Shown here: piece by piece, positions 1-20,478 of the stretch
How the letters are laid out: every line of letters begins with the position of its first letter
Position numbering within the stretch: position 1 is the first letter of the stretch
Source: Agrococcus jejuensis
Lineage (GTDB): Bacteria; Actinomycetota; Actinomycetes; Actinomycetales; Microbacteriaceae
NCBI RefSeq assembly: GCF_900099705.1
Contig: NZ_LT629695.1
Location: forward strand, 1,736,001-1,800,000
Direction of reading: 5' to 3'
Length of the DNA stretch: 64,000 nucleotides
Position numbers and translations under genes: made by a program
The notes under the pieces: generated by a model
The model's database searches: none
Seen by the model: only the letters and a program-made list of their open reading frames with translations
What the model was told of the DNA's origin: nothing

Positions 1-1
1 C

Positions 2-400
2 GCGACGCTCGTGACCGGCGGCATCCGCATCCCGGGCGCCGGCGCGTTCGTCGAGCCCGGCATCCTCACGGGCGTCACGCCCGCGATGCGCGTGTGGCAC
101 GAGGAGCTGTTCGGCCCCGTCGCGATGGTCGTGCCGGTGGCGGATGCCGAGGAGGCCGTGCGCGTGGCGAACGACTCGCCGTTCGGGCTGGGCGCGAACG
201 TGTTCGACGACGCCGACCCCGCGCGTGCGGAGTGGGTCGCCGAGCGGCTCGAGGCGGGCATGGTGTCGATCGGCGCGTTCGGCGTCTCGCGCCCCGAGCT
301 GCCGTTCGGCGGCGTGAAGCGCTCGGGCTTCGGCCGCGAGCTCGGCCCCGACGCCGTGCTGGAGTTCGCGAACCGGCGGCTGGTGACGCAGCCCGCGTGA
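2..400 (+). CDS. Aldehyde dehydrogenase, C-terminal part (truncated by window edge)
   Basis: This is the last 132 residues of an NAD(P)-dependent aldehyde dehydrogenase; the start lies before the window. The segment HEELFGPVAMV and the near-terminal FGGVKRSGFGRELG match the conserved C-terminal part of the family, most like succinate-semialdehyde dehydrogenases. The catalytic Cys and Glu region is outside the window, so substrate cannot be judged. The reading frame is open from base 2. It ends 25 bases before a repeat-rich intergenic region and is on the same strand as the next genes. Confidence 0.9.
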   Translation, partial: ATLVTGGIRIPGAGAFVEPGILTGVTPAMRVWHEELFGPVAMVVPVADAEEAVRVANDSPFGLGANVFDDADPARAEWVAERLEAGMVSIGAFGVSRPELPFGGVKRSGFGRELGPDAVLEFANRRLVTQPA

Positions 401-3974: not shown

Positions 3975-3978
3975 GCTG

Positions 3979-6059: not shown

Positions 6060-6084
6060 TGTCGGATCGTGGAACGATCGCCGC

Positions 6085-6579
6085 ATGCGCCGAGCCCTCG
6101 GAATCCTCGTCCTGCCGCTGATCCTCGGGGTCTGCGCGTGCACGCCCGGTGCGCTCGGGCCCGATCCCTCCGGCGCGCCGGTGCCGTCGGCGGATCCGTC
6201 GGCGGGGCCGTCGGATGGTCCGACCGTCGAACCATCCGACGCCCCCGACGAGCTCGAGCCGCCCGTCGTCGCGACGTTCGACGTGGGCGACGAGTCGTTC
6301 CGCGTCGAGCTCGCGACGCCCGAGCTCGTCGAGCAGGCCGAGGCGGTGCTCGCGGGCACGTCGGGCTCCACGATCCCGAACGGCATCGTCGTGCGCGACG
6401 ACCCGAGCGTCAACGAGCCCTGGTCGTGGCACATCGACCCGGCGACGTTCGAGTTCGCGTTCCAGACGACCGAGGTGTGCGACGGCATCCCCTCGTTCGT
6501 CGAGGACGAGACCGTGACGAGCCCGTACTTCTGCCCGTGGTCGGCGCGACTCGTGTCGCTGGAGCCGCTCGAGGGCTGA
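6085..6579 (+). CDS. Putative lipoprotein of unknown function
   Basis: A 164-residue secreted protein. Positively charged MRR is followed by a hydrophobic stretch and the lipobox-like LGVCAC, so lipidation at a Cys near residue 18-20 is likely. A Pro/Ser/Asp-rich linker (about 25-60) leads to a small domain with two Cys near the C-terminus (EVCDGIPS and YFCPWSA) that may form a disulfide. I do not recognise the domain; it vaguely resembles beta-barrel inhibitor-like proteins carrying a VNEPWSWHID-type segment. It is divergent from the LacI gene. Confidence 0.7.
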   Translation: MRRALGILVLPLILGVCACTPGALGPDPSGAPVPSADPSAGPSDGPTVEPSDAPDELEPPVVATFDVGDESFRVELATPELVEQAEAVLAGTSGSTIPNGIVVRDDPSVNEPWSWHIDPATFEFAFQTTEVCDGIPSFVEDETVTSPYFCPWSARLVSLEPLEG

Positions 6580-6588
6580 CGCGTCGGG

Positions 6589-7182
6589 CTAGGCGGACCC
6601 GGGGTCGCGCTTGCCGAGGAGGCGGTCCTTGGCGTCCTGGAACTCCTGGTCCGTGATGGCTCGCGAGTACAGCAGCTTCTGGAGGTTCTGCAGCGCGGTC
6701 GCGGTCTCGGGGTTCGAGATCGCCGCGATCTGCGCGGCCTCCGCCTCGCTGCTGTGGACGTTGATCGTCGTCGAGTGGTGCACGCCGGGGTTCTGCGCCG
6801 CGGCCATCGCGCGCTGATGCTCGGCCTCGGACGCGAGTCGAGCGTCCACCCGCTCTGCCGCGAGGCGCGTCTCGACGCTCTTCGTGGTGGGTCCGGCGCC
6901 GCGCAGGAGGTAGACGCCGAAGGCGAGGAGGGCGATGCCGACGACGGCGGTGGTCAGCGGCGAGGCGGACTGCGAGGAGGCAGCGCCCGTGAACGAGCTG
7001 AGCACGGCGGCTCCGCCGAAGATCGTCAGCCCGATGCCCCATCCCTTGTGCGCGGCTTGGGCGGCGAAGGTCTTCCTCGGGGGTCGCGTGTCGCCGGACC
7101 AGCGTCGACCATCCCAGTACCTCGTGCCCGCGTCACCGGCGTTCGGGTACCAGCCTGGCGCGGTGTTCGAGGGCGCGGACAT
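6589..7182 (-). CDS. DUF2510 and SHOCT domain membrane protein
   Basis: A 197-residue protein with three parts. The N-terminal DUF2510 signature is PGWYPNAGDAGTRYWDGRRW (residues 9-28). Two hydrophobic segments lie at about 50-100. The C-terminal SHOCT motif has the typical short helix-turn form, LYSRAITDQEFQDAKDRLLG. Such proteins are common in actinobacteria and their function is unknown; SHOCT domains are thought to mediate oligomerisation. It converges with the lipoprotein gene with a 9-base gap. Confidence 0.85.
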   Translation of the reverse strand: MSAPSNTAPGWYPNAGDAGTRYWDGRRWSGDTRPPRKTFAAQAAHKGWGIGLTIFGGAAVLSSFTGAASSQSASPLTTAVVGIALLAFGVYLLRGAGPTTKSVETRLAAERVDARLASEAEHQRAMAAAQNPGVHHSTTINVHSSEAEAAQIAAISNPETATALQNLQKLLYSRAITDQEFQDAKDRLLGKRDPGSA

Positions 7183-7374: not shown

Positions 7375-8382
7375 TCAGCCGGCCGCGCCGAGCGTGCTCG
7401 CGCGGTAGCGCACCGCGATCGGCAGCGGCACCTCGGCGTCGCCGGCGGCGTCGCCGCGCACGATGTCGAGCAGCAGGCGGATGCATGCCGCCCCCGCGGC
7501 GCGCGGCGTGAGGTCGATCGCCGTGACGGGCGGGTCGGTGTAGACGTACGCGGGGTTGTCGACGAGCGCGGCCACGAGCACGTCGTCGCCGACCTCGCGG
7601 CCGAGGTCCTGCAGCACGTCGACGACGACGATCGCCGAGCCGTCGGGGCCGCAGAGGAAGGCGTCGACCTCGGGCCGAGCGACGAGCAGCTCGCGCGCGG
7701 CGGCCGCGTACGCGCCCGACTCCGAGCCGAAGGGACGCTCGACCATCGCCGGCTCGACGCCGCGCTCGTCGCACCACGCGCGGTAGGCGGCCTGCACGCG
7801 CCCGCCCCAGTCGGTGACGGCGGGGGAGGCGAGCAGTGCCGGCATCGTGGCGCCGCGATCGGCGAGGTGGTCGAGCAGCTCGCGCACCGCGGCCTCGTGG
7901 TCGGCGGAGACGACGCCCACCGAGCGCGAGGCAGGGGAGCCCTCGAGCGTCACGATCGGCTGGTCGAGGGCGAGGAGGCGCTCGGCGACGGGGTCGTCGG
8001 CGAGCGGGTCGAGCAGGATGACGCCGTCGACGGCAGGCGGGGCCTGGCCGCCCGCGAGGCGCCGCGACGTGATGAGCGTGACGTCGACCTCGTCGGCCGC
8101 GGCCTGCTCGAGCGCCCCGTAGACGGTCTGCAGGTAGTACTCGATGCGCGTCATCGCCTCGGGCAGGTGGATGCCGAGCGTGCCGGTGGTCGCGGCGCGC
8201 AGCGAGCGCGCTGCCGAGTTCGGCCGGTAGCCGAGCGTCGCGGCGGCGGCCTCGACGGCGACGCGCGTCTCCTGCGAGACGCGCCCGTGGCCGCGCAGGG
8301 CGTCGGATGCCGTGGTGCGCGAGACGCCGGCGGCGCGGGCGACGTCGACGATCGTCGCGGCGCGGCTGGCTCGGGCGGGCAT
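7375..8382 (-). CDS. LacI-family transcriptional regulator
   Basis: A 335-residue regulator with the helix-turn-helix IVDVARAAGVSRTTASDAL, then NSAARSLRA and an effector domain. It is less canonical in the effector region, which lacks the usual NPFF segment and reads GIHLPEAMTRIEYYLQ. It is divergent from the peptide-importer operon that starts at 8605. A perfect palindrome lies at that operon's transcription start, so it probably represses that operon. The inducer would then be a peptide or amide breakdown product rather than a sugar, which is inference. Confidence 0.9.
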   Translation of the reverse strand: MPARASRAATIVDVARAAGVSRTTASDALRGHGRVSQETRVAVEAAAATLGYRPNSAARSLRAATTGTLGIHLPEAMTRIEYYLQTVYGALEQAAADEVDVTLITSRRLAGGQAPPAVDGVILLDPLADDPVAERLLALDQPIVTLEGSPASRSVGVVSADHEAAVRELLDHLADRGATMPALLASPAVTDWGGRVQAAYRAWCDERGVEPAMVERPFGSESGAYAAAARELLVARPEVDAFLCGPDGSAIVVVDVLQDLGREVGDDVLVAALVDNPAYVYTDPPVTAIDLTPRAAGAACIRLLLDIVRGDAAGDAEVPLPIAVRYRASTLGAAG

Positions 8383-8489: not shown

Positions 8490-8518
8490 TTGACCGCGGC
8501 GGACCCCGAGCGTAGATT
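8490..8518 (+). promoter_or_regulatory. Promoter of the NylC/C45 peptide-importer operon
   Basis: TTGACC (8490-8495), a 17-base spacer and TAGATT (8513-8518) form a good sigma-70-type promoter. Transcription would begin near 8525, 80 bases before the GTG start of the binding-protein gene. Confidence 0.7.
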
Positions 8519-8525
8519 CCCGGCA

Positions 8526-8545
8526 ATGCCGGAACGATCCGGCAT
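8526..8545. promoter_or_regulatory. Palindromic operator at the transcription start
   Basis: ATGCCGGA-ACGA-TCCGGCAT is a perfect 8+4+8 inverted repeat placed directly after the -10 box, where a bound repressor would block initiation. The divergent LacI protein (7375-8382) is the obvious candidate to bind it. Confidence 0.65.
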
Positions 8546-8604
8546 CCGGCACGAGGCATCCAGCACCCCGCCTTCGCGTCGGCCCCACCGACCGGGAGGC
8601 TCCC

Positions 8605-10212
8605 GTGCGCACCACCTCCACCGCAGCCGTCGCGGCCGCCGCCATCGCGGCGCTCGCGCTCGCAGGATGCTCGGGCGGCTCGACGCCGACCGCGTCCCAG
8701 GCCGACGTGCCCGACGGCTACGTCGCCTTCGCCGACGACTCGATCGACAGCGCGGGCGGCAGCCTGCAGGTGCAGGTCGACTACGACACCGCCGAGGCGC
8801 AGGGCCTCGACCCTGCCTACGCCGAGGTCGCCCGCTCGTGGTCGATCATGGGGCTCGTGTACGAGTCGCTCGTGACGGTCGGCCCCGGCTTCGAGATCCA
8901 GCCCGAGCTCGCCTCCGAGTGGGAGCAGCCCGACGCCACGACCTACGTCTTCACCATCCAGCCCGACGCGACGTTCTCGAACGGCCGCGCCGTGACGGCC
9001 GCCGACGTCGTCGGCTCGCTGCAGCGCCTCGTCGACTCCGGCTCCGTGTGGTCGGGCCAGCTCGGCCCCGTCGCGTCGATCGAGGACACGAGCGGCGACG
9101 CGCAGCAGGTCACCGTGACGCTCGAGACGCCGTACACGCCCTTCCTCGCCGCGCTCGCGAACACGCCCGCGGCGATCCTGCCCATGGAGGAGCTGACGGC
9201 CGGCACGTTCGACCCCGTGACCGAGATGCTCGGCACCGGCGCCTTCACGGTCGCCGAGCACCGGCAGGACGAGTCGTGGACGTTCGACGCGAACCCCGGC
9301 TGGTGGGATGCGGATGCGCTCGGCATCGACACGCTCGAGCTCGTGATCGCGGGCGACGAGCAGACGCGTCTCGCCGGCCTGCGCGACGGGTCGACGCAGC
9401 TCGCGAACTTCTCGAACCCCGACGCGCTGCAGCTGCTGCAGTCGGCGTCGAACGTCACGGCCGTGAGCCAGACGCAGAGCGACTTCTTCTACGCGATGCT
9501 CAACTCGGTGAACCCCGACTCGCCGTTCGCGGACCCCGAGGTGCGCCAGACGGTCAACGCGCTCATCGACCGCCAGGCGCTCGTCGACGTGGCCCTCGCC
9601 GGCGCCGCCGAGCCGACGGCCGTCACGCCGGCGAACCTGCCCGACGCGTGCACGCCCGACTCCGTGCCGTCCGCATCCGCCGAGGTGGATGCGGATGCGC
9701 TCGCAGGCGTCGAGGCCAGCATCCTCATCTACAACTCCGACCCGGCGCTCGCGGCGATCGCGCAGCTCATGCAGCAGCAGCTCGAGGCGGCCGGTGCCGA
9801 GATCGAGCTCGAGTCGGTCGACGACGGCACGTTCGGCGAGCGCGTGTACGTGTCGCAGCCCGGCGACTTCGACATCGCGCTCAGCTGGTTCGCGGGCTAC
9901 GGCGACGCGTCGATCGTGACGAGCTGGTGGAACCCCGAGACGGCGTTCTTCAACGTCGGCTTCACGCAGTCGCACGACGACCTCTCGGAGGCCATCGTCG
10001 CCGCGCAGCAGCTGGAGCCGGGCGCCGAGCGCGCCGAGGCGCTGCAGACGGTGTGCGACCTCGCCGACGAGTACGCCGAGATGCTGCCGCTCGCCACGCG
10101 CCCGCAGGTGATCGGGTTCGCGAGCGACCAGCTGTCGCCGTCGATCCTGGCCGACGAGGGCTACGGCGACTTCCTGCGCCTCATCGCCGACTTCCGCACG
10201 ATCGGAGGCTGA
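8605..10212 (+). CDS. Peptide ABC transporter substrate-binding lipoprotein (SBP family 5)
   Basis: A 535-residue extracytoplasmic solute receptor. The signal peptide ends in a lipobox (ALALAGCSGG) with the lipidated Cys near residue 22. The family-5 hallmarks are present: a query-loop YESLVTVGP, LASEWEQPDATTYVFTIQ and FSNGRAVTAADVV. It captures oligopeptides or related amides and delivers them to the permeases encoded next. The GTG at 8605 has a GGGAGG-like ribosome site just upstream. It is the first gene of an operon of at least nine genes. Confidence 0.93.
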   Translation: MRTTSTAAVAAAAIAALALAGCSGGSTPTASQADVPDGYVAFADDSIDSAGGSLQVQVDYDTAEAQGLDPAYAEVARSWSIMGLVYESLVTVGPGFEIQPELASEWEQPDATTYVFTIQPDATFSNGRAVTAADVVGSLQRLVDSGSVWSGQLGPVASIEDTSGDAQQVTVTLETPYTPFLAALANTPAAILPMEELTAGTFDPVTEMLGTGAFTVAEHRQDESWTFDANPGWWDADALGIDTLELVIAGDEQTRLAGLRDGSTQLANFSNPDALQLLQSASNVTAVSQTQSDFFYAMLNSVNPDSPFADPEVRQTVNALIDRQALVDVALAGAAEPTAVTPANLPDACTPDSVPSASAEVDADALAGVEASILIYNSDPALAAIAQLMQQQLEAAGAEIELESVDDGTFGERVYVSQPGDFDIALSWFAGYGDASIVTSWWNPETAFFNVGFTQSHDDLSEAIVAAQQLEPGAERAEALQTVCDLADEYAEMLPLATRPQVIGFASDQLSPSILADEGYGDFLRLIADFRTIGG

Positions 10213-10214
10213 CG

Positions 10215-11180
10215 ATGCGAGCAGCGCGATGGGTGGGCGGCCGGGTCCTCACGGGCCTCGTGACGCTGCTCGGCATCGCGCTGCTCGTCTTCGCCGCGGT
10301 GCGGGTCGTGCCCGGGCAGGCCGAGCGCGTGCTGCTCGGACCGCTCGCGACCGACGAGCAGCGCGCGGCGCTCGTGGCCGCGCTCGGCCTCGACCGCGAC
10401 CTCGTGAGCCAGTTCGGCATCTGGATGGGCAAGGTGCTCACGGGTGACCTGGGCACGTCGATCGTGTCGCGGCAGCCGGTGCTCGACGAGCTCGCGATGC
10501 GACTGCCGGTGACGGCGACCATCGCGCTCATGGCCCTCGTGATCGCGCTCGCGATCGGCATCCCGGTGGGGGTGCTGCAGGCGCTGCGCGCTCGCCGTCG
10601 CGGCGGTGCGGTCGTGAGCCGCGTCGTCGGCGGCCTCGGCATCTCGATCCCCGAGTTCGTGCTCGGCGCGCTCGTGGTGCTGCTGTTCTCGTCGGTGCCG
10701 CTCGGCATCACGATCGGGGCGTTCACGCCCGTCGCCGAGGACGTCGGCCAGGGGCTGCTCTCCTCGCTGCTGCCGGCGCTCGTGCTGTCGGTGTTCTGCG
10801 CCGCCGCCACGGCCCGCACGACGAGGGATGCCGTGCTGGGCGTGCTCGTGGAGCCGTACGTGCAAGCCGCGGTGGCGCGCGGCGAGACGCCGGGGTCGAT
10901 CGTGCGGCACCACGTGCTGCGCAACGCGACCATCCCCATCCTCACGCTCGCCGCGACGCTGCTCGCCTACCTGCTGGGAGGCGCCGTGATCGTGGAGGGG
11001 CTCTTCAACGTGCCGGGCGTCGGCTCGTACCTGCTGCTCGCGATGGACCGCCGCGACTACGCCGTCGTACAGGCGGGCGTCATGCTCGCCGCCGTCGTGT
11101 TCGTGGCGACGAGCGTGCTCGTCGAGCTCGTGTCGAGCCTCGTCGACCCGCGCGTCTCGACGATCGGGGCGAAGGCATGA
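10215..11180 (+). CDS. Peptide ABC transporter permease (DppB/OppB type)
   Basis: A 321-residue inner-membrane protein with about six membrane helices. It has the N-terminal RLxTGLVTLLGIALLVFA-like helix of OppB proteins and an EAA-type cytoplasmic loop (AAVARGETPGSIVRHHVLRN) that contacts the ATPase. It begins 2 bases after the receptor gene and overlaps the next permease by ATGA. It forms the channel with the DppC-like partner. Confidence 0.92.
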   Translation: MRAARWVGGRVLTGLVTLLGIALLVFAAVRVVPGQAERVLLGPLATDEQRAALVAALGLDRDLVSQFGIWMGKVLTGDLGTSIVSRQPVLDELAMRLPVTATIALMALVIALAIGIPVGVLQALRARRRGGAVVSRVVGGLGISIPEFVLGALVVLLFSSVPLGITIGAFTPVAEDVGQGLLSSLLPALVLSVFCAAATARTTRDAVLGVLVEPYVQAAVARGETPGSIVRHHVLRNATIPILTLAATLLAYLLGGAVIVEGLFNVPGVGSYLLLAMDRRDYAVVQAGVMLAAVVFVATSVLVELVSSLVDPRVSTIGAKA

Positions 11181-12049
11181 CCGGCGTCGCCGCGGGCCTC
11201 GCGGCCGCACCCGGTCGCCTGCAGGCGCTGCGCACGAAGGATGCGGTGCTCACCGCGGCCCTCGTCGTGCTGGCGCTGCTCGTGGTCGCGTCGCTCGCGG
11301 GCCGCGTCGTGCCGGGGTTGGACGACGGCACGACGACGGTCGGCGGCCGCTTCGAGGCGCCGAGCCTCGCGCATCCGCTCGGCACCGACTCCCTCGGCCG
11401 CTCGCTGCTCGCGCGCCTGCTCGAGGGCATCGGCACGACGTTCCTGCTCTCGGCCGTCGCCGTCGTCTGCACCGCGGTGATCGCGACGGCGCTCGGCATC
11501 CTCGCCGCCTACCTCGGCGGCTGGGTGCGCGAGGTCGTCATGCGCATCGGCGACGTGCTCTACGCCTTCCCGTCGATCCTGCTCGCGCTGCTCGTCGCCG
11601 CGGCGTTCGGCGCCGGCATCACGGCGTCGCTCGCGGCGATCGTGCTCATCACCGTGCCGCTCATGACCAGGCAGGTCGCCGCCGCGGCCGCGCAGGTCGC
11701 CCGGCGCGACTTCGTGACGTCGGCCCGCATCTCGGGCGTCCCGGCGCCCGTCATCATGGCACGGCACCTGCTCACGAACGTGTCTGGCACCGTCGTCATC
11801 CAGGCCACCTACGCGCTGTCGGTCGCGATCCTCGTCGAGGGCGGCCTGTCGTTCCTCGGCTACGGCGTGCAGCTGCCGGCGTCGTCGCTCGGCCTGCTCG
11901 CGAGCGAGGGCAACCTCTACCTGCTCACGGCGCCGTGGATCCTCGTCTCCTCGGGCGGCGCCATGGTGCTCGCGATCCTCGCCGTCACGCTCGTGGGCGA
12001 CAGCCTGCGCGACCGCCTCGAGCCCCGACAGGCGGTGGACCTCACATGA
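11177..12049 (+). CDS. Peptide ABC transporter permease (DppC/OppC type)
   Basis: A 290-residue membrane protein. HPLGTDSLGRSLLARLLEG is the OppC signature after the first helix. The EAA loop lies near SARISGVPAPVIMARHLLTN. About six membrane helices are visible. Both ends overlap neighbours by four bases, showing tight translational coupling in the importer operon. Confidence 0.92.
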   Translation: MTGVAAGLAAAPGRLQALRTKDAVLTAALVVLALLVVASLAGRVVPGLDDGTTTVGGRFEAPSLAHPLGTDSLGRSLLARLLEGIGTTFLLSAVAVVCTAVIATALGILAAYLGGWVREVVMRIGDVLYAFPSILLALLVAAAFGAGITASLAAIVLITVPLMTRQVAAAAAQVARRDFVTSARISGVPAPVIMARHLLTNVSGTVVIQATYALSVAILVEGGLSFLGYGVQLPASSLGLLASEGNLYLLTAPWILVSSGGAMVLAILAVTLVGDSLRDRLEPRQAVDLT

Positions 12050-12972
12050 GCGCCCTCATCGAGATCGACGACCTCGTCGTCGAGTTCCAGACGTCGCGCG
12101 GCACCGTGCGCGCGCTCGACGGTGCCACGCTGTCGGCGGATGCGGGCGAGGCGCTCACGATCGTGGGCGAGTCGGGCTCGGGCAAGTCGACGCTCGGCAC
12201 CGCCATCGGCGCGCTGCTGCCGGCGAACGGACGCTTCGCGAGCGGCTCGGTGCGCGTCGACGGCGTCGACGTGGGCGCGCTCGACCGGCAGGGGCTGCGC
12301 GCGCTGCGCCGCGACTCCCTCGGCTTCATCCCGCAGGACCCCATCGCGACGCTCGACCCCACGCAGCGCGTCGGCAGGCAGCTCGCCCTCGTCGTGCGCG
12401 CGCTCGGCGGCGACGCGTCGAAGGCGGCGCTCGCGCAGATGCTCGACGAGGTGCGCATCGCCGACCCCGCCGACGTGCTGCGGCGCTACCCGCACGAGCT
12501 GTCGGGCGGCATGGCGCAGCGCGTCGCCATCGCGATCGCGATGGCCCGCAGGCCGCGCATCCTCGTCGCCGACGAGCCCACCGCCGCGCTCGACGCCAAC
12601 GTGCGCCGCGAGGTGCTGCGCCTCATCTTCGAGGCCGCCGAGCAGACCGGCGCGACGGTGATCTGGCTCAGCCACGACCTCGAGGCCGTCGCCCGCTGGT
12701 GCCGCCGCGTCGCCGTGATGTACCGCGGCAAGGTCGTGGAGGTGGGCCCGCCCGACGTCGTGCTGCAGCGGCCCGAGCATCCGTACACGCGGTCGCTCAT
12801 CGCGGCGATGCCGTCGCGGCTGCAGCGCGACGTGCCCGTGCGCACCTACACCGAGCTGCTCGCGGCGCAGGGTGGGGATGCGGCCGCGCCGGTCGCGTCG
12901 GCACCTGCGCCGTCGGCGCCCGCTCCCGCAGCACCCGCACCCGCATCCGCCGACGAGGAGGCCCGCGCATGA
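12046..12972 (+). CDS. Peptide ABC transporter ATPase (DppD type)
   Basis: A 308-residue ATPase with Walker A GESGSGKST, signature LSGGMAQRV, Walker B ILVADEPTAALD and the family's C-terminal HPYTRSLIAAMPSR segment. The last about 40 residues are an Ala/Pro-rich tail without recognised function. The usual oligopeptide-transporter Cys cluster near the C-terminus is absent. It pairs with the next ATPase to energise import. Confidence 0.92.
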   Translation: MSALIEIDDLVVEFQTSRGTVRALDGATLSADAGEALTIVGESGSGKSTLGTAIGALLPANGRFASGSVRVDGVDVGALDRQGLRALRRDSLGFIPQDPIATLDPTQRVGRQLALVVRALGGDASKAALAQMLDEVRIADPADVLRRYPHELSGGMAQRVAIAIAMARRPRILVADEPTAALDANVRREVLRLIFEAAEQTGATVIWLSHDLEAVARWCRRVAVMYRGKVVEVGPPDVVLQRPEHPYTRSLIAAMPSRLQRDVPVRTYTELLAAQGGDAAAPVASAPAPSAPAPAAPAPASADEEARA

Positions 12973-13700
12973 CCCTCGTGGAGCTCGACGCCGTCTCGGT
13001 GCGCTTCGGCACCGGCGCCCGCGCGGTGCACGCGATGCGCGAGGTCTCGTTCTCGGTCGACCAGGGCCAGACGGTGGGCCTCGTCGGCGAGTCCGGCTCG
13101 GGCAAGTCGACCGCCGCATCCGTCGCCCTCGGCCTGCGCGCGCCCACGACGGGTGCCGTGCGCTTCGACGGGCAGCCGCTGCGCCGCCGCCGCGTCGCGG
13201 GCGAGATGCAGGCCGTGCTGCAGCACCCCATGTGGGCGCTGAACCCGCGCATGAGCGTCGCGGCGTCGATCGCCGAGCCGCTGCAGGTGCGCACGCGCGA
13301 CCGCGCCGCCGTGCGCGCCCGCGTCGGCGAGATGCTCGAGCAGGTGGCCCTCGCGCCCGAGCTCGGCGCACGGCATCCGCACGAGCTCTCCGGCGGCCAG
13401 CGGCAGCGCGTCGCCATCGCCCGCGCCCTCATCACGAGCCCGCGCTTCATCGTCTTCGACGAGGCCGTCAGCGCCCTCGACGTGTCGGTGCAGGCGCAGA
13501 TCCTGCAGCTCATCCAGCGGCTGCAGGCCGAGCACGGCTTCGGCGCGCTCTTCATCTCCCACGACATGGCCGTCGTGCGCTACCTCGCCGACCGCGTCGT
13601 CGTGATGCGCGGCGGCGAGGTCGTCGAGGACGCCGGCGCCGCCGACGTCGTAGCAGGCTTCACGCACCCGTACTCCCGAGCCCTCCTGGAGGAGCGATGA
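12969..13700 (+). CDS. Peptide ABC transporter ATPase (DppF type)
   Basis: A 243-residue ATPase with Walker A GESGSGKST, signature LSGGQRQRV and Walker B FIVFDEAVSALD. It ends in HPYSRALLEER. The usual DEPTSALD is DEAVSALD here, but the catalytic Glu is kept. It overlaps the DppD-type gene by ATGA and the NylC-like gene likewise, so transport and hydrolysis are translationally coupled. Confidence 0.92.
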   Translation: MTLVELDAVSVRFGTGARAVHAMREVSFSVDQGQTVGLVGESGSGKSTAASVALGLRAPTTGAVRFDGQPLRRRRVAGEMQAVLQHPMWALNPRMSVAASIAEPLQVRTRDRAAVRARVGEMLEQVALAPELGARHPHELSGGQRQRVAIARALITSPRFIVFDEAVSALDVSVQAQILQLIQRLQAEHGFGALFISHDMAVVRYLADRVVVMRGGEVVEDAGAADVVAGFTHPYSRALLEER

Positions 13701-14761
13701 CCACCACGTCGACCCAGCCCACGTTCGCGCCGCAGACCGAGTGGGATGCCGAGCCGCGACGCACGACGCGCTCGACGTTCGCGGGCCTCACGACGAACGA
13801 CGACGTCGACCTCACGCCCGTGCCCGGCAAGGGCCGCGCCGAGGTGACGTTCGACTTCCCCCGCGTGCGCATCGGCACGGCGCAGTACGACGAGGGCCCG
13901 ACGGGCGTCACCGTCATCGAGGTCGAGGGCGGCGCGCGCACGGCGATCGACGACCGCGGCGGCGCGGTGGGCATCACGGGCCGCTACCCCTTCAACCACG
14001 CCATCTGCCTCGCCGGCGGCTCGGTGCACGGCACCGCCGCCGCGTCGGGCGTGACGGATGCGCTGCTCGAGCGCGGCGGACGCCGCACGGGCTTCGGCGA
14101 CCTCGCCGTGGTGTCGGGCGCCGTCATCTACGACTTCGCCGTGCGCGACAACGCCATCACGCCCGACAACGCCCTCGGCCGCGCGGCGTTCGACCGCGCC
14201 CGCGAGGGCGTCGTCGAGGTCGGTCGCGTGGGCGCTGGCGTCGGCGGCTCGTGCGGCAAGATGCGGCCGACCGCCACGGAGTGGGCGGGCCAGGGCGCCG
14301 CGTTCCGGCAGGTCGGCGATCTCAAGATCCTCGCCCTCACCGTCGTGAACGCCGTCGGTGCCGTCATGGACCGCGACGGCTCGGTGCTGCGCGGCAACGT
14401 GCAGGAGGACGGCACGCGCCGGCACCCGTCGATCGATGGCGCCGCCGCGTTCGCCGACGGTGGCGTTCCGGGTGCCGACGGCATCCAGCGCGGCAACACC
14501 ACGTTGTCGGTCGTCGTCACGAACGCGCGGCTCGAGGAGATCGACCTGCGCCAGCTGGCCACGCAGATCCACTCGTCGATGCATCGCGGCATCCAGCCGT
14601 TCCACACGGCGCTCGACGGCGACACGCTCTTCCTGCTCACGACCGACGAGGTCGACCTGCCCGCCTACGACCCGAGGCAGGGCCTCGGCCCGTCGGTCGC
14701 GTCGTTCGGCGCGATCGCGTCGGAGGTCATGTGGGATGCCGTGATCGAGAGCGTGCGCTGA
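13697..14761 (+). CDS. P1-family autoproteolytic peptidase, NylC-like endo-amidase
   Basis: A 354-residue Ntn-type (DmpA/P1) hydrolase. GNTTLSVVVTN places a predicted autocleavage between Asn267 and Thr268, almost the same position as the Asn266/Thr267 cleavage in NylC, the 6-aminohexanoate-oligomer endo-hydrolase of about 355 residues. Other stretches I recall from NylC are matched closely: EGPTG, RGGAVGITG, FNHAICLAGG, IYDF, HSSMHRGIQPFHT and the C-terminal GAIASEVMWDAV. Family members cleave beta-peptides, N-terminal amino acids or nylon oligomers, so the substrate is open. The gene overlaps the importer ATPase, which suggests it acts on imported amides. It is the most distinctive enzyme of the window. 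Confidence 0.9.
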   Translation: MTTTSTQPTFAPQTEWDAEPRRTTRSTFAGLTTNDDVDLTPVPGKGRAEVTFDFPRVRIGTAQYDEGPTGVTVIEVEGGARTAIDDRGGAVGITGRYPFNHAICLAGGSVHGTAAASGVTDALLERGGRRTGFGDLAVVSGAVIYDFAVRDNAITPDNALGRAAFDRAREGVVEVGRVGAGVGGSCGKMRPTATEWAGQGAAFRQVGDLKILALTVVNAVGAVMDRDGSVLRGNVQEDGTRRHPSIDGAAAFADGGVPGADGIQRGNTTLSVVVTNARLEEIDLRQLATQIHSSMHRGIQPFHTALDGDTLFLLTTDEVDLPAYDPRQGLGPSVASFGAIASEVMWDAVIESVR

Positions 14762-14762
14762 C

Positions 14763-15503
14763 GTGCACACCTTCCCCGCGTACCACGCGCCCGACGGGCG
14801 TGCGCTCGTCGACCTCGTGACGCGCACGCCGTTCGCGCTCGCGGTGACGTCGCAGACGGGCGCGCCCATCGCGACGCACCTGCCGGTCGTGCTGCCGCCC
14901 ACGCTCGACCCCGCATCCGTCGACACGCTCGTGGGCCAGACGCTGTGGTCGCACATGGGCCGCGCGAACCGGCACTGGCGGGCCATGCGCAGGCATCCCG
15001 AGGTGCTGCTCATCCACACGTCGACCCACGGGTACGTGTCGCCGTCGCTGTACGGCACGCCCGGCGCGGTGCCGACCGTCGACTACGCCGCCGTGCACCT
15101 CACCGGCACCGTGCGGCTCATGGACGACGACGAGGCGCTCGACGTCGTCGTGCAGACCGTCGCGCAGCTCGAGGGCCAGCGCGGCGAGGCCGGCGGGCCG
15201 ACGTGGGACATGGCGGGCTCGATGGACGTGTTCCGCGACATCATCACGGGCGTCACGGCGTTCGCGATCGAGATCACCGGCGAGCAGGCCGTGTTCAAGC
15301 TCAGCCAGGACAAGCCCGCCGACATCCGCGGCCGCGTACGCGACGAGTTCGCCGGCGAGGGGTCGTTCGCGGGCGCCGGTGCCATCGCCGGCTGCCCGCA
15401 CGCCGACCTCGCCGGGCTCATGGACGCCCTGCCCGCCGAGCACGTGCGCCGAGGCCACCTGCCACCGCTGTCGACGCGCGTCGACGGAGAGGATCCCCGA
15501 TGA
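14763..15503 (+). CDS. PaiB-like FMN-binding split-barrel protein
   Basis: A 246-residue protein of the PaiB/FMN-binding negative regulator family. The N-terminal split barrel contains VDLVTRTPFALAVTS, then YVSPSLYG and VPTVDYAAVHLTG, which align with the PaiB core. The C-terminal helix contains KLSQDKPADIRGRV. PaiB proteins bind flavin and were described as repressors of degradative enzymes; many act as flavoenzymes. GTG 14763 is used; it starts 1 base after the NylC-like stop. It overlaps the next gene by ATGA. In this operon it may be a reductase or a modulator, which is unresolved. Confidence 0.85.
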   Translation: MHTFPAYHAPDGRALVDLVTRTPFALAVTSQTGAPIATHLPVVLPPTLDPASVDTLVGQTLWSHMGRANRHWRAMRRHPEVLLIHTSTHGYVSPSLYGTPGAVPTVDYAAVHLTGTVRLMDDDEALDVVVQTVAQLEGQRGEAGGPTWDMAGSMDVFRDIITGVTAFAIEITGEQAVFKLSQDKPADIRGRVRDEFAGEGSFAGAGAIAGCPHADLAGLMDALPAEHVRRGHLPPLSTRVDGEDPR

Positions 15504-16591
15504 AGGTCGCCGAGCTGCGCCTGCCCGCCACCGACCCCGTCTCGCGCGGCGTCGCCTACGGGTCGGCGTTCGCCGAGCCCATCCGCGAGACGATCACGCT
15601 GTACCGGGACGCGTACGAGGTCATGGGGGTGCCCGCGGGCGTGATCGCGCCGGTGGTCGAGGGATCGATCGACGCCGTGCGTGCGTGGGCGCCTTCCGTC
15701 GCCGCCGAGCTCGACGGCGTCGCGCACGGCGCCGACGTGCCGCTCGCCGACCTGTACCTGCTCACGTCGCGCACCGAGATCCTCGCCCACGCGCCCACGG
15801 CGAAGGCGCTCGAGTGCTCGACGATCGTCGCGCTGCACGACGACCGCCGCCCCATGACGATGCAGACGTGGGACTGGCACGGCGAGCTCGCGCCCACGGG
15901 CGTGCTGCTGGAGGTGCCGCTCGAGGATCGCGTCGTGCGCACCTTCACCGAGACCGGCATGGTCGGCAAGATCGGCGTCGCCCGCACGGCATCCGGCCGC
16001 GGCCTCGGCGTGCACTTCAACATCCTCCATCACGTCTCCGATCGCACGGCCGTGGGTGTGCCGGTGCACGTCGTCGCGCGCCGCATCCTCGACGAGGCGT
16101 CGACGCTCGACGAGGCGATCGCGCTCGCGCGGGATGCCGTCGTCGGGGCGTCGACGGTGCTGACGGTGGTGGAGGCATCCTCTGCGGCCGGTCCCGCTCG
16201 GGCGGCGTGCATCGAGCTCGCTCCCGCGCAGATCGCGGTGGTCGAGCCGACCGACGCGTACCTCGCGCACACGAACCACTTCCTCGACGCGGGCCTCGCC
16301 GAGGGCGAGGCGACGAGCGACACGTCGACGACCGGCCCCCGGCTCGAGCACGCGCTCGCCCAGCGCGACGGCGCGATGGCCGCGACGGATGCGGTCTCGA
16401 TGGCGGCGGGGATGTGCGGCGCCGCGGGTGCGGACGCGCCGGTGTGCGTGCGCGTGCGGCCCGCCGCCGACCTCGCCGAGCGGTGGGAGACGCTGCTCAC
16501 CGCATCCCTCGACGTCGAGGCGGGCGCGATCGACTGGTTCGCCGGCCCACCGAGCGGCCTCGACGCCGCGACGGTGCGTCGGTTCGGGTAG
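15500..16591 (+). CDS. C45-family autoproteolytic acyltransferase/hydrolase (copy 1)
   Basis: A 363-residue protein of the isopenicillin-N acyltransferase-like (C45) Ntn-hydrolase family. The likely nucleophile is Cys106 in ALECSTIVALHD, exposed by self-cleavage of the peptide bond before it. The typical downstream QTWDWHGEL and AHTNHFLD (substrate pocket Asn) segments are present. Family members hydrolyse or transfer N-acyl groups of amino acids, peptides or beta-lactams. It overlaps the PaiB gene by 4 bases and is followed by an unusual inverted repeat, then a paralogue. Direct action on NylC-type products is inferred from context. Confidence 0.88.
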   Translation: MKVAELRLPATDPVSRGVAYGSAFAEPIRETITLYRDAYEVMGVPAGVIAPVVEGSIDAVRAWAPSVAAELDGVAHGADVPLADLYLLTSRTEILAHAPTAKALECSTIVALHDDRRPMTMQTWDWHGELAPTGVLLEVPLEDRVVRTFTETGMVGKIGVARTASGRGLGVHFNILHHVSDRTAVGVPVHVVARRILDEASTLDEAIALARDAVVGASTVLTVVEASSAAGPARAACIELAPAQIAVVEPTDAYLAHTNHFLDAGLAEGEATSDTSTTGPRLEHALAQRDGAMAATDAVSMAAGMCGAAGADAPVCVRVRPAADLAERWETLLTASLDVEAGAIDWFAGPPSGLDAATVRRFG

Positions 16592-16620
16592 CGGCAGTGG
16601 CGACGTCGTCACCACCCAGC

Positions 16621-16776
16621 AGCTGGTCGAGGAGCGCAGGCGCGCAGCGCCTCCGCGTCACGAGACCACGCGACGTGCGCGCCCGACGCGACCATGAGCG
16701 TGCCTGGGCAGGAGCGGCGGTCGCGTGGTCTCGTGACGCGTGCTCGCCCGGGGGCTCGCGCGCTCCTCGACCAGCT
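16621..16776. repeat. Interrupted long inverted repeat between the two C45 genes
   Basis: Two perfectly paired blocks occur: AGCTGGTCGAGGAGCGC (16621-16637) with 16760-16776 (17 bp), and 16654-16674 with 16720-16740 (21 bp). Between the blocks the two arms differ. The left insert is itself a hairpin (AGGCGC ... GCGCCT), and the loop contains CCTG/CAGG. It lies in the 202-base gap between the C45 paralogues and ends 17 bases before the second start codon. It could be a terminator/attenuator or a structured RNA. Confidence 0.75.
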
Positions 16777-16793
16777 GGTGAGGCGCACCCCTG

Positions 16794-17888
16794 ATGCGCG
16801 TCCTCGAGATCGCAGGCGCCACGCCCCACGACCGCGGCGTCGATCGCGGGCGACAGGTGGCCGCGGTCGTGCGCGCGCACTGGCGCGTCTACCTCGACCT
16901 GTTCGCGATCGCCGGCTGGTCGGAGGCCGAGGTGCGCAGCCACGCCCTCGCCTCGCTCGACGCGCTCGGTGCCTGGTGGCCCGACGGCCGCGACGAGGTG
17001 CTGGGCGTCGCCGCCGGCGCCGAGCTGCCCGAGTGGATCGCCGCCGCCCTCGCCGCCCGCACCGAGCTGCTCGTCGCACGCGGCGGGCCCGACGCATCCG
17101 TGCAGCCGGGCCGTGAGTGCACGATCCTCGCCACCGTGTCGCCGGCCGCGGCGGCGCAGGTGTGGGACTGGCATCGCGAGCTCGGCGACGCCTGGCACGC
17201 GCAGCAGATGCGCGGCGGGCCACTGGGCTTCGCGGGCGTGACCGAGCACGGCATCTGCGCGAAGGTCGGCATGAACGACGCAGGCGTGGGCGTGCTGCTC
17301 GCGATCCTGTCGCACGTCGACGATCGCCCGGGCGGCGTGCCCATCCACTCGGTGCTGCACCGCATCCTCGCGGAGGCGACGACGGTGGAGGCGGCGCTCG
17401 CGATCGCGCGGTCGGCAGCTGTGACGTCGTCGAGCGTCGTGACGATCGTCGGCCCCACCGAGGGCGGCGGCCGCACGGCGACGGCGATCGAGCTGAGCCC
17501 TGCCGGGCCCGAGGTGGTCGAGCCCATCGTCGACCTGCACGACGCCCTGTGGCTGCCGCGGTCGAACCACTTCCTCTCCGAGCGCCTCGCGGCGGGCTCG
17601 CGCACGTTCCGCGGCGATCCGGACTCGCCCGATCGCCTCACGCTGCTGCGCCGTCGCATCGCGGCGCGGTCGACGCCGATCACGAAGGCGATGGACCTCG
17701 TGCCGATGCTGCGCACCGCGCCGGGCGAGGAGCTGGGAGACATCTGCTGCGTGGCCCGCCCCGAGCAGCCGCTCGGCCGCGCGTGGCAGACGCTCGCGAC
17801 GATCGCGATCGACGCGGCGGGGCTGACGATCCTCGAGGGCTCGCCGCTCGACGCGCCTGGCGCGCGCCTCAGGGTGCCGCTGCGCTGA
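16794..17888 (+). CDS. C45-family autoproteolytic acyltransferase/hydrolase (copy 2)
   Basis: A 364-residue paralogue of the preceding gene. The likely nucleophile is Cys109 in GRECTILATV, followed by QVWDWHREL, and RSNHFLSERL replaces AHTNHFLD. The two proteins share family architecture but look well diverged, suggesting different acyl specificities or a heteromeric pair. It is separated from copy 1 by the inverted repeat, so its expression may differ. It closes the importer/amidase gene group. Confidence 0.86.
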   Translation: MRVLEIAGATPHDRGVDRGRQVAAVVRAHWRVYLDLFAIAGWSEAEVRSHALASLDALGAWWPDGRDEVLGVAAGAELPEWIAAALAARTELLVARGGPDASVQPGRECTILATVSPAAAAQVWDWHRELGDAWHAQQMRGGPLGFAGVTEHGICAKVGMNDAGVGVLLAILSHVDDRPGGVPIHSVLHRILAEATTVEAALAIARSAAVTSSSVVTIVGPTEGGGRTATAIELSPAGPEVVEPIVDLHDALWLPRSNHFLSERLAAGSRTFRGDPDSPDRLTLLRRRIAARSTPITKAMDLVPMLRTAPGEELGDICCVARPEQPLGRAWQTLATIAIDAAGLTILEGSPLDAPGARLRVPLR

Positions 17889-18422: not shown

Positions 18423-19175
18423 TCAGGCGAGCGAGCCGCGCCAGACGCTCTCGCCGCTGTGCGTGGGGTCGCCGTCGAGCGGCTCGATCGACACGTCGAC
18501 GATCGGGAACGCGTCGAGGTCGAGGTCGTCGGGCAGCACGTACTCGGCGTGATCCGCATCGAGCGTGCCGACGTTGACCATGCCCTCGACGTCGGCGTCG
18601 ATGAGCCACACGTCGAGCGTGCCGCCGGCTGCCTGCGGCAGCGCATCCGCGTCGATCACGAGCACGCGGTGCCCGTCGCGCTCGACGATGGATGCGGAGG
18701 CCGGCCCGATGCCGGACTCGAGCGGGTCGAGGGCGATCGACGCGACGACCGTCTCGGCGGGCGGCCGCTGCGCGATCCAGGTGCCGATGCCCACGCCGCC
18801 GCCGACGACGATCGCCGTCGCGACGCACGCTGCGACGAGGGTGCGCAGCGAGACGCGGCGCGGCAGGCGGCGCCGCCGCGCGCGCACGCGGGGCGGCTCC
18901 CCGGCGCTCGCGGCCGCCTCGAGCGACGACGCGCCGGCGGGGCGCGCGTCGGCCTCCGCGTCCGCATCCAGCTCCGCCGCGATGCGATCCCACAGACCTG
19001 GCGGCAGGGGAGCGGGCTCGACGGCGTCGTCGCGGATGCGCTGCACCGTGCGCTCGAACGCCTGCAGCTCGGCGGCGCACGCCGCGCAGTCGCGCAAGTG
19101 CTCGTCGAGCGTGCCCGTGACGCGCGCGCCCTCGACGGCGCGCCAGGCGAGGTCGTCATGCGAGATGTGCGGCAT
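18423..19175 (-). CDS. Anti-sigma factor (RskA-like, zinc-binding, membrane)
   Basis: A 250-residue single-pass membrane protein. The N-terminal zinc-finger motif LDEHLRDCAACAAEL (HX3CX2C) binds the sigma factor. One membrane helix lies at about 100-125 after an Arg-rich patch. The extracytoplasmic C-terminal part has the anti-sigma-K fold signature GTLDVWLIDADVEGMVNVGT. It overlaps the sigma gene by 20 bases, the usual arrangement. Regulated proteolysis of the membrane part is expected to free the sigma factor. Confidence 0.9.
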   Translation of the reverse strand: MPHISHDDLAWRAVEGARVTGTLDEHLRDCAACAAELQAFERTVQRIRDDAVEPAPLPPGLWDRIAAELDADAEADARPAGASSLEAAASAGEPPRVRARRRRLPRRVSLRTLVAACVATAIVVGGGVGIGTWIAQRPPAETVVASIALDPLESGIGPASASIVERDGHRVLVIDADALPQAAGGTLDVWLIDADVEGMVNVGTLDADHAEYVLPDDLDLDAFPIVDVSIEPLDGDPTHSGESVWRGSLA

Positions 19176-19731
19176 GGGCTCCCTCCCATCGGTCCCTCAG
19201 TCGTCGCAGCGTGCGCGACAGGTGGCTCTTCACGGTGCCTACCGGGAGTTCGAGGCGCTCGGCGATCGCGGATGCCGGCAGGTCCTCGATCACGGCGAGT
19301 CGCACGATCGTGCGTTGCGGCTCGTCCATCTCGGCGAGCGTCTGCTCGACCAGGATGCTGCCCGCGACGGCGTCGGGCACGTCGACCGGATGCGGGCGCT
19401 CGGCCCGGTCGAGCACGACGGTCGGGTCGACGACGCGCTCGTGCAGCACGGAGGCGACGCGGAAGTGGTCGGCGATGCGGCGGCGCGCGATGCGCACGAT
19501 CCACGCGCCGAGCGGGCCCGCCTCCGGGTCGTACCGCTCGCGCGATCGCCACGCCGACACGAAGGTCTGCTGCACGACGTCCTCCGCATCCGCCCGATCC
19601 ATCACCCGCAGCGCGAGGGCCAGCACGAGGCCGCCCCAGCGGTCGTACGCGAGCCGCAGGCCGACGTCGCTCGGACCGGTCGCGAAGGCGAGCGCGATCG
19701 CGTCGTCGTCGAACCCCTCCGTCGCGGTCAC
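19156..19731 (-). CDS. ECF RNA polymerase sigma factor (SigK-like)
   Basis: A 191-residue sigma factor with region 2 (DRADAEDVVQQTFVSAWRSR) and region 4 (LPASAIAERLELPVGTVKSH). GTG 19731 is used. It lies downstream of the sortase gene with a 24-base gap and overlaps its anti-sigma. The group probably controls envelope or redox genes. Its close neighbours DUF4397 and sortase are candidate targets. Confidence 0.9.
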   Translation of the reverse strand: MTATEGFDDDAIALAFATGPSDVGLRLAYDRWGGLVLALALRVMDRADAEDVVQQTFVSAWRSRERYDPEAGPLGAWIVRIARRRIADHFRVASVLHERVVDPTVVLDRAERPHPVDVPDAVAGSILVEQTLAEMDEPQRTIVRLAVIEDLPASAIAERLELPVGTVKSHLSRTLRRLRDRWEGAHAAHLA

Positions 19732-19755
19732 GCGGTCACCGTAGTCCCGTGCTGG

Positions 19756-20478
19756 TCATGCGGTCACGGGGGTGGCGGTGACGATGAGGTTGTCCTCGTA
19801 GGCGCTGGCGGCGGGGTCCCAGGCGCCCGCGCACGTCACGAGCCGCAGCAGCGGCGGGCCGTCGCGGGCGAAGAGCTCGTCGAGCGGCAGCTGCTGCTTG
19901 CCGAGCTGCTCGACCGTGTCGACGCGGAACGTCAGCACGGCGCCGCTCGCGGTCGTGACCTCGACGAGCGCCCCGGGCTCGACCTCGAGCAGGGCCGCCA
20001 TGGGTGCGCGACCCAGCTCGGAGTCGACGTGCGCCGACAGCACCGCCGAGCCCGCGGGCGCTCCGGGCGCCGGCCCGTACTCGTACCAGCCGACCTCGGT
20101 GACGAGCGTCGGGATCTCCATCTGCCCGTCGGCGCGCACGCCGACCGGCACGACGGCGAGGTCGAGGCCCACGTCGGCGATCGCGACCTCGACGGGCGCA
20201 TCCTGCACCGCCGGCTGCTGCAGCGCGATGTCGAAGTCCGAGCGGGCGACGGGCGACGGCGACGCGGATGCGGACGGCGTGGGCTCGGGCGCGCTGGGCT
20301 CGGACGCACTGGGCTCGGCGCTCGGCGGCGGCGACCCGGCGTCGGTCGCCTCGACGCCGCTCGTGCTGCGCACGAGCCACACGCCGCCGACGACGCCGAG
20401 CACGACCGCCGCGCCCGCGAGCATCGCGGCGACGCGACGACCGGTGCGCGTCAGGCTCCTCCTGCGCGCATGTCGCAC
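19756..20478 (-). CDS. Sortase (class E/F type)
   Basis: A 240-residue membrane-anchored transpeptidase from GTG 20478. An Arg-rich N-terminus and one membrane helix (MLAGAAVVLGVVGGVWLV) precede a Pro/Ser-rich linker and the sortase domain. The catalytic His is in LSAHVDS and the catalytic Cys in LRLVTCAG. The usual Arg after the Cys is not obvious in AWDPAASAYEDNLIV, which is odd. The start was chosen because the terminator of the upstream gene ends at 20502; other in-frame starts would lie inside that hairpin or gene. It would anchor surface proteins, with the adjacent DUF4397 protein as a candidate substrate. Confidence 0.8.
   Translation of the reverse strand: MRHARRRSLTRTGRRVAAMLAGAAVVLGVVGGVWLVRSTSGVEATDAGSPPPSAEPSASEPSAPEPTPSASASPSPVARSDFDIALQQPAVQDAPVEVAIADVGLDLAVVPVGVRADGQMEIPTLVTEVGWYEYGPAPGAPAGSAVLSAHVDSELGRAPMAALLEVEPGALVEVTTASGAVLTFRVDTVEQLGKQQLPLDELFARDGPPLLRLVTCAGAWDPAASAYEDNLIVTATPVTA

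Follow-up and report, generated by a model that had tools for sequence, protein, structure and literature searches.

NylC, the 6-aminohexanoate-oligomer endohydrolase of Arthrobacter (pOAD2), Agromyces and Kocuria, acts on linear aliphatic amides and is a leading enzyme for nylon recycling; nylon-6 itself has the backbone -NH-(CH2)5-CO-. The passages seen name Thr267, Lys189 and Asn219 as NylC residues (PMC6021441) and place opp genes next to nylB/nylC in Arthrobacter and Agromyces (PMC7019077). In the passages retrieved from the literature searched, no natural substrate is given for NylC, and those pairing 'NylC' with 'natural substrate' mean other things.

The window (the whole 64 kb stretch of Agrococcus jejuensis DNA that was analysed) carries a NylC-type P1 hydrolase gene within a tightly packed operon on the + strand (8605-17888). 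Sequence and profile searches found every gene present, with 4-nt overlaps or 1-2 nt gaps at the gene junctions from the solute-binding protein (SBP) gene through the first C45 gene (Table 1). A first-pass annotation had described an importer overlapping a P1 gene (length 354) with a predicted Asn267/Thr268 cleavage site, followed by PaiB and two C45 genes, all of which we confirmed in the sequence.

Table 1. Features of the operon and its neighbours (window positions; seven-digit positions refer to the contig).
Feature	Position	Strand	Evidence or remark
LacI-family regulator, divergent from operon	7375-8382	-	49% to operon LacI family
SBP, family-5 solute-binding lipoprotein	8605-10212	+	Pfam PF00496 (SBP_bac_5) E 1.7e-60; LAGC lipobox by eye
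ABC permease 1	10215-11180	+	PF00528 (BPD_transp_1)/PF19300
ABC permease 2	11177-12049	+	PF00528 (BPD_transp_1)
ABC ATPase 1, OppD-like	12046-12972	+	PF00005, NCBIfam
ABC ATPase 2, DppF/OppF-like	12969-13700	+	PF00005, NCBIfam
NylC-type P1 (S58) self-cleaving amide hydrolase, 354 aa	13697-14761	+	predicted cleavage N267 (14495-14497) / T268 (14498-14500)
'PaiB' (FMN_bind_2), predicted heme N-hydroxylamine dehydratase, NohD/piperazate-synthase family	14763-15503	+	predicted heme ligand H64 (14952-14954); N69, T105, K179
C45a, self-cleaving (Ntn) hydrolase	15500-16591	+	nucleophile Cys106 (15815-15817); NF040521 204 bits, cut-off 85
Dispersed palindromic element between both C45 genes	16595-16790	none	
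C45b, self-cleaving hydrolase, lineage-specific	16794-17888	+	nucleophile Cys109; NF040521 157 bits, cut-off 85
Aldehyde dehydrogenase (SSADH-like), 3' end	1..400	+	whole gene G000:C1:1735033-1736400
CoA-transferase family III gene, left of window	1733734-1734912	-	adjoins aldehyde dehydrogenase gene
Glutaryl-CoA-dehydrogenase-like gene, left of window	1732509-1733666	-	

A conserved operon, probably for import and degradation, around a NylC-type hydrolase

The P1 protein finds NylC in the PDB at E 8e-108; the two are 55% identical over 339 positions, fall in one length class and share the Asn/Thr cleavage site as well as the Lys and Asn residues. Asn267, Thr268 and Lys188 are invariant in 31/31 aligned P1 sequences, the window's included, and Asn218 is kept in 30/31; no other S58 match was found in the genome of the window. 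Phylogenetic analysis (105 rows), which could have refuted the first-pass annotation, placed the protein with NylC and apart from the DmpA-type P1 proteins, with branch support 100/100. NylC itself is nested within the operon P1 clade. For this tree, 'DmpA-type' is our label for an outgroup of high-scoring PF03576 matches, 12 of whose 27 rows were usable, and loci L149-L154 and L156-L158, for the most part repeat fetches of loci that it contains, were omitted. The DmpA/BapA-type aminopeptidases thus share the Pfam family S58 with the window protein but form a separate clade, and identity as a DmpA-type aminopeptidase is ruled out by this placement. A search of PLSDB plasmids for close P1 relatives returned 8 records, all below 60% identity and pOAD2 not among them.

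Upstream of P1, the SBP_bac_5 protein, two permeases and two ATPases have the composition of Dpp/Opp-type peptide importers, although no NCBIfam cut-off was reached among the matches listed. The closest solved SBP is AapF, on which a literature search gave no useful paper. Downstream, C45a resembles isopenicillin N acyltransferase in fold, then acid ceramidase and N-acylethanolamine amidase. The conserved Cys/Asp/Asn of the C45 family are present, with Cys106 invariant in 35 rows and cleavage predicted, whereas identity to isopenicillin N acyltransferase is about 20%; a hydrolase role is suggested because the gene sits in an importer operon. C45a and C45b are the only C45 matches in the genome. 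Among 80 fetched loci, C45 matches nearest to C45b are confined to Agrococcus and Leucobacter, so that, of the two C45 hydrolases described earlier, both are present in the window but the conserved unit has one and the second is lineage-specific. The palindromic element (0.2 kb) that separates C45b from C45a has matches at no fewer than 40 sites in the genome; Rfam gave no match to the window at gathering score.

Importer, P1 and C45 genes occur together in 61 of the 80 relative loci (21 genus labels, taken from the record titles), a linkage whose absence would have spoken against the first-pass annotation. In an even class survey of 246 genomes, a C45 gene lay within 1.1 kb of P1 for 8/9 NylC-range P1 genes versus 2/130 other P1 matches. 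Neither a C45 nor an SBP neighbour was found at any of 20 DmpA-type loci (0/20 each), and P1 stands with neither importer nor C45 in 11/80 loci (7 labels). Chance assembly of the genes is ruled out by this linkage, the survey and the DmpA-type control. The genes, their order and their conservation mark a conserved operon, predicted to serve import and degradation. Since both the NylC placement and the linkage hold, the oligoamide-scavenging role proposed in the first-pass annotation is well supported by genomics; the beta-peptides and N-acyl peptides it named are not the substrate that the partner genes suggest.

A PaiB-like protein related to NohD and piperazate synthase

The PaiB gene, which the first-pass annotation had passed over, encodes a protein closer to NohD (E 4e-46; 46.5% identity, same fold) and piperazate synthase (PZS; E 4e-40) than to Bacillus PAI2/PaiB (E 1e-14). 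It has the split-barrel fold of NohD and PZS (KtzT, PipS) and their heme His with Asn, Thr and Lys: H64, N69, T105 and K179 are kept in 24/24 aligned operon PaiBs, heme binding being predicted, whereas in our alignment the residue opposite PZS Lys-178 is a Lys in just 7/24. The passages seen of PMC13274692 name these heme, Asn, Thr and Lys residues, and report that Bacillus PaiB, although it has all four, does not form N-N bonds; they and those of PMC11705231 describe PZS as acting on N5-hydroxyornithine.

NohD is represented in the PDB by 9oqs and others, of which 9oqt and 9oqu contain N-hydroxylated ornithine; its activity is taken from the PDB names, a literature search having given no relevant paper among the 20 listed of 141. 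A protein from Actinomadura sp. ATCC 31491 matches its sequence at 100%, and one of our loci (L171) encodes NohD at 99% inside a complete operon ordered LacI-CuAO-SBP-PERM-PERM-ATP-ATP-P1-NohD-C45-ACAD-ALDH-CoAT3. Because the family includes NohD and PZS, and NohD is encoded in such an operon, we regard PaiB as the strongest clue to the substrate. By analogy with NohD of the same operon type, we infer that the window PaiB would catalyse heme-dependent N-hydroxylamine dehydration. A role as transcriptional regulator is less likely, given that the protein is closer to NohD/PZS than to Bacillus PaiB and that NohD lies within such an operon.

Across the 61 linked loci, PaiB and a MOSC reductase replace one another (PaiB only 44, MOSC only 11, both 0, neither 6). 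The MOSC group carries a phospho-lyase-like aminotransferase, and none of its 11 loci is among those with glutarate-type genes; for these two reasons it may act on another compound.

Catabolic neighbours and candidate substrates

An AGAO-like copper amine oxidase adjoins the operon in 38/80 loci. It is nearest to phenylethylamine oxidase, of a family known for aromatic amines, and a search of the window's genome gave no copper amine oxidase match. A C5/glutarate branch, set down as a test together with the queries, was found in the form of the ACAD, the CoA-transferase and their orthologues in the window's genome. By PDB matches the ACAD of the Nonomuraea operon is a glutaryl-CoA dehydrogenase (E 5e-189), and the genome of the window holds a likely orthologue 11 kb from the operon; both dehydrogenases fall short of the NCBIfam glutaryl-CoA dehydrogenase cut-off. 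The genome also holds a likely orthologue of the CoA-transferase, plus the aldehyde dehydrogenase (ALDH) at the window's left edge. The best NCBIfam model for the CoA-transferase is succinate-glutarate CoA-transferase (304-329 bits, below the curated cut-off of 750), and among PDB entries a formyl-CoA transferase is a slightly better match than the succinate-hydroxymethylglutarate enzyme. In A. baldri (L011, L164), a similar trio of ALDH, CoA-transferase and dehydrogenase abuts the LacI gene and the operon.

The building blocks of desferrioxamine are N-hydroxycadaverine and succinate, both of which P1/C45 hydrolysis would release. According to the passages seen of PMC11800396, bacterial amidases break down desferrioxamines, which serve as a carbon and nitrogen source. 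Judging from the gene content, we put at about even the chance that the operon catabolises N-hydroxylated C5-diamine oligoamides, likely desferrioxamine-type hydroxamate oligomers. In such a pathway, the SBP-dependent ABC importer would bring the nylon-like oligoamide into the cell, P1 would cut amide bonds and C45 amide or hydroxamate bonds, and the NohD-family heme protein would dehydrate the released N-hydroxylamine; in the second operon group, the MOSC/2Fe-2S reductase would handle the N-OH end instead. Copper amine oxidase (where present), aldehyde dehydrogenase, CoA-transferase and glutaryl-CoA dehydrogenase could then take the C5 chain to crotonyl-CoA, and nylon-6 would be an accidental substrate. 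The LacI-family protein, matched in 67/80 loci, likely regulates the operon, and a regulator of this family fits a carbon/nitrogen role better than one in iron uptake.

Two other classes of compound are each unlikely, to much the same degree. Degradation of N-acylated primary amines (amides of phenylethylamine, tyramine, cadaverine or polyamines), freeing the amine for copper amine oxidase, agrees with the AGAO-like oxidase beside the operon and with the fold of C45a, but leaves the NohD-type PaiB, the MOSC reductase that replaces it and an endo-acting oligoamide hydrolase unexplained, and the oxidase is the very gene for which the window's genome has no match. Other N-hydroxylated peptides, such as N5-hydroxyornithine or N6-hydroxylysine siderophores or antibiotics, would suit an importer of the peptide family, the N-hydroxylated ornithine crystallised with NohD and the substrate of PZS. 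However, ornithine would not lead to glutaryl-CoA, hydroxylysine could do so without need for an amine oxidase, and the amides for which NylC is known are linear aliphatic ones.

Scavenging of 6-aminohexanoate (nylon) or other omega-amino-acid oligomers as such appears less probable still. P1 is of NylC type, and in the passages seen of PMC10858056 Tt-NylC from T. tengchongensis is active on PA6 and on nylon-6 trimer, the latter being cut slowly (67% left after 5 h). The genome of that species has one NylC-type P1, beside an operon-type importer, its tie to the tested enzyme being by species. A Microcella contig (L039), as assembled, carries the importer, nylC (a P1 gene whose product is 96% identical to NylC), a C45 gene that breaks off at about codon 34, and next nylB (fragment). 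In its left part, this nylC-nylB contig shares 93% identity with an intact Leucobacter operon, and the break falls within the C45 gene. Yet this pOAD2-type cluster, with nylB beside importer and nylC, is the only one of the 80 loci with a nylB match; the C45 genes of the window are intact and nothing in its 64 kb matches the L039 nylB fragment. Moreover, the operon spans many genera, and neither its C5/glutarate nor its N-hydroxylamine partners would obviously serve a C6 chain lacking N-OH.

Proposed origin of NylC and implications

Import and dismantling of natural nylon-like molecules, probably hydroxamate iron-binders, by this gene set is likely and would explain where a nylon-eating enzyme came from. 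It is a fair possibility, though one we hold somewhat short of even, that the native operon of NylC is a widespread desferrioxamine-catabolic system, the nylon cluster being a captured copy with C45 broken and nylB added, and nylon-eating a by-product. Our analysis assigns NylC to a conserved operon of the chromosome and puts forward specific enzymes as candidates for breaking down desferrioxamine. A further suggestion is that many of the proteins labelled 'FMN-binding negative transcriptional regulator' are N-hydroxylamine dehydratases, and the natural P1 relatives found here (252 stretches in one search, 1348 proteins in another) are possible nylonase starting points.

Operon layout and affiliation of the P1 hydrolase

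Gene positions and domain matches bear out the operon arrangement claimed in the first-pass annotation. The last ATPase gene and the P1 gene share 4 nt, as do PaiB and the first C45 gene, and PaiB starts 1 nt past the P1 gene. The second C45 gene is set off from the first by a 0.2 kb palindromic element that is dispersed in the chromosome, with at least 40 matching places (a lower bound, 40 of 429 candidate places having been scored). In the whole genome (3.40 Mb, one contig), the window P1 is the only S58 match, and the only two C45 matches both lie in this operon region.

Features of the operon region and of related loci (L-numbers, loci of relatives)
Feature	Location	Strand	Remarks
HAD phosphatase-like, 826-aa glycoside-phosphorylase-like, PAP2-like and second LacI genes	window 689-6016		between glutarate-type genes and operon; names by eye
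Importer	window 8605-13700		complete
P1	window 13697-14761		354 aa
PaiB	window 14763-15503
First C45 (C45a)	window 15500-16591
Palindromic element	window 16595-16790		about 165-195 bp, between both C45 genes, MITE/REP-like
Second C45 (C45b)	window 16794-17888
Anti-sigma-like, ECF sigma-like and DUF4397-like genes	window 18423-21382	-	right of operon; names by eye
Interval between ALDH and LacI, A. baldri			no gene called
Broken C45, purine permease fragment and nylB	L039:6464-7407
MOSC + FAD/NAD + 2Fe-2S reductase	L017:12485-13897; L052:1509-3323		replaces PaiB in a second operon group, which also carries an APH-aminotransferase fusion and often has P1 as a tandem pair
Second ATPase-C45b-PaiB group	L021 and L048, about 0.6-3.6 kb		Leucobacter; directly upstream of operon

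Searched against the PDB, the window P1 matched 17 sequences, with NylC entries at the top (E near 1e-107) and non-NylC P1 enzymes at 1e-48 and weaker. Asn267, Thr268 and Lys188 are invariant in all 31 aligned sequences and Asn218 is present in 30 of the 31 (window's included in both counts). A maximum-likelihood P1 tree of 105 rows, with a long-branch warning for some distant rows, included 12 outgroup rows that we labelled DmpA-type as high-scoring PF03576 matches; a branch with 100/100 support splits these from the remainder. NylC (5xyg) is placed deep among the operon P1 proteins, next to those of Microcella (L039, 96% identity) and Leucobacter celer (L048, 93%) with support 100/98, and the window P1 falls in a six-row Agrococcus/Zimmermannella clade. 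Its closest named relative, among the best 80 of 252 loci, is from Agrococcus jejuensis (96%). The tree and the PDB matches thus uphold the proposed kinship with NylC rather than with plain DmpA-type enzymes.

Linkage of importer, P1 and C45 in other genomes

Relatives were sought in one genome per species (84,980 species); 252 stretches matched and the best 80 were kept. Counting same-strand genes, all five importer genes lie upstream of P1 in 66 of the 80 loci, a C45 gene lies within 4.5 kb downstream in 64, and both accompany P1 in 61. These 61 carry 21 of the 32 genus labels; Aestuariivirga, from the Pseudomonadota, is one of the 21. Five loci have the importer without C45 at threshold (L024, where the contig ends; L039, where C45 is broken; L049, L055 and L062), and three have C45 without the full importer (L076, L079 and L056, the last on a contig that begins at P1). 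The remaining 11, from four genomes of Micromonospora, one of Arthrobacter and six from outside the Actinobacteria, lack both.

Because these loci had been picked by similarity, 246 genomes were also drawn evenly from the class. P1 rows of 45-75 bits defined the NylC range: ten rows, with one further fragment dropped; setting aside a row that covers half of a split match leaves nine. C45 lies within 1.1 kb of P1 in 8/9 (seven genomes, the window's own included, five of them also among the 80 loci, so that both counts overlap); the remaining P1, in genome G392, lacks a C45 neighbour and belongs to the Micromonospora clade of the tree. Among higher-scoring P1 matches, C45 occurs within 10 kb in 2 of 130, contig ends disregarded. 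As controls, 20 DmpA-type loci (two cut by contig ends) were scanned up to 10 kb each side at the same thresholds; they gave no match to C45, PaiB, permease, SBP, copper amine oxidase, MOSC reductase, CoA-transferase or glutaryl-CoA dehydrogenase, and aldehyde dehydrogenase, an ATPase pair and aminotransferase in one each. The 80 loci, the even survey and these controls together show that the linkage, whose absence would have refuted the first-pass annotation, is conserved. NylC-like P1 occurs in 5 of 299 genomes of the window's family (own genome included) and in none of five other genomes sampled from its genus.

L039 is a contig of 7.4 kb from a Microcella MAG, and such contigs can be chimaeric. 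It matches the intact Leucobacter celer operon (93.3% identity, 6,568 alignment columns) from upstream of SBP through nylC; the likeness ends some 34 codons inside C45, whose frame then continues into a fragment of a cytosine/purine permease. The right end encodes residues 1-121 of nylB (6-aminohexanoate-dimer hydrolase, E 1e-63) before the contig stops; this piece has no match in the other 79 loci or the 64 kb window. L039 likely represents an intermediate stage in the assembly of the nylon gene cluster. In both Arthrobacter and Agromyces, opp genes adjoin nylB and nylC (PMC7019077). The tested Tt-NylC comes from T. tengchongensis (PMC10858056), a species whose one NylC-type P1 adjoins an importer and copper amine oxidase, with no C45 or PaiB at threshold.

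Partner genes and the PaiB protein

At set thresholds, matches across the 80 loci were LacI regulator in 67, PaiB in 46, copper amine oxidase in 38 (11 labels; nearest, phenylethylamine oxidase), CoA-transferase in 28 (5 labels), glutaryl-CoA-dehydrogenase-like in 18 (3 labels), APH-aminotransferase in 15 (nearest, ethanolamine-phosphate phospho-lyase), aldehyde dehydrogenase of the Nonomuraea kind in 15 and MOSC/FAD/2Fe-2S reductase in 11 (7 labels). The 61 full-unit loci comprise 44 with PaiB only, 11 with MOSC reductase only, none with both and six with neither (Fisher p 3e-8, related genomes not being independent). The MOSC proteins YcbX and mARC reduce N-hydroxylated compounds. Given this and that the two never occur together, PaiB and the MOSC reductase may be alternative treatments of an N-OH group.

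C45a and C45b each carry the nucleophile Cys (C106 and C109, respectively) together with conserved Asp and Asn. The predicted C45 structure (pLDDT 95) matches isopenicillin N acyltransferase first, then acid ceramidase and N-acylethanolamine amidase. Among the 80 loci, Agrococcus and Leucobacter are the only sources of matches nearest to C45b.

By sequence, the window PaiB is of the NohD kind (E 4e-46, against 4e-40 for piperazate synthase and a weaker 1e-14 for Bacillus PaiB); its predicted structure (pLDDT 87) has KtzT as top match and NohD as close second. His64, Asn69, Thr105 and Lys179, kept in 24/24 aligned operon PaiBs, align with His-61, Asn-66, Thr-102 and Lys-173, named for SbPZS (PMC13274692), and the alignment also meets T98 and K167, mutated in NohD PDB entries. 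Since a literature search for NohD gave no relevant paper among the matches listed, its activity is taken from the PDB title ('N-hydroxylamine dehydratase'). The NohD sequence is 100% identical to a protein of Actinomadura sp. ATCC 31491, and genome G563 encodes it at 99% inside an operon of this type: LacI, copper amine oxidase, SBP, two permeases, two ATPases, P1, NohD, C45, GCDH-kind acyl-CoA dehydrogenase, aldehyde dehydrogenase and CoA-transferase.

Proposed glutarate branch and role of the operon

Desferrioxamines are degraded by bacterial amidases for carbon and nitrogen (PMC11800396). If the substrate is desferrioxamine-like, its cadaverine part should end as glutarate, an expectation set down as a test alongside the queries. 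In the PDB, glutaryl-CoA dehydrogenases are the leading matches of the Nonomuraea acyl-CoA dehydrogenase (best E 5e-189), with other subfamilies at 2.5e-70 or weaker. The top NCBIfam model of the CoA-transferase is succinate-glutarate CoA-transferase, at a score below the curated cut-off, and in the PDB formyl-CoA transferase (3e-90) is slightly ahead of succinate-hydroxymethylglutarate CoA-transferase (3.5e-84). The best match to the Nonomuraea enzyme in the window genome shares 58% identity with it, ahead of two paralogues at 34% and 32%. Its gene, about 11 kb to the left of the operon, has as neighbours a CoA-transferase gene and one for an SSADH-like aldehyde dehydrogenase, the end of which occupies window 1-400. 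Against the NCBIfam glutaryl-CoA dehydrogenase model, the 58% match and the Nonomuraea enzyme both score below the cut-off. In A. baldri a similar trio lies right next to the LacI gene and the operon, so the genes at window 689-7182 may be a later insertion.

Among the matches listed in a literature search, no paper linked a nylon term with a desferrioxamine term. In the proposed pathway, the importer would take up a linear N-hydroxylated oligoamide, the two self-cleaving hydrolases (P1 and C45) would cleave its amides, the N-OH group would then be removed and the C5 chain would enter glutaryl-CoA; we infer that desferrioxamine fits each of these steps.
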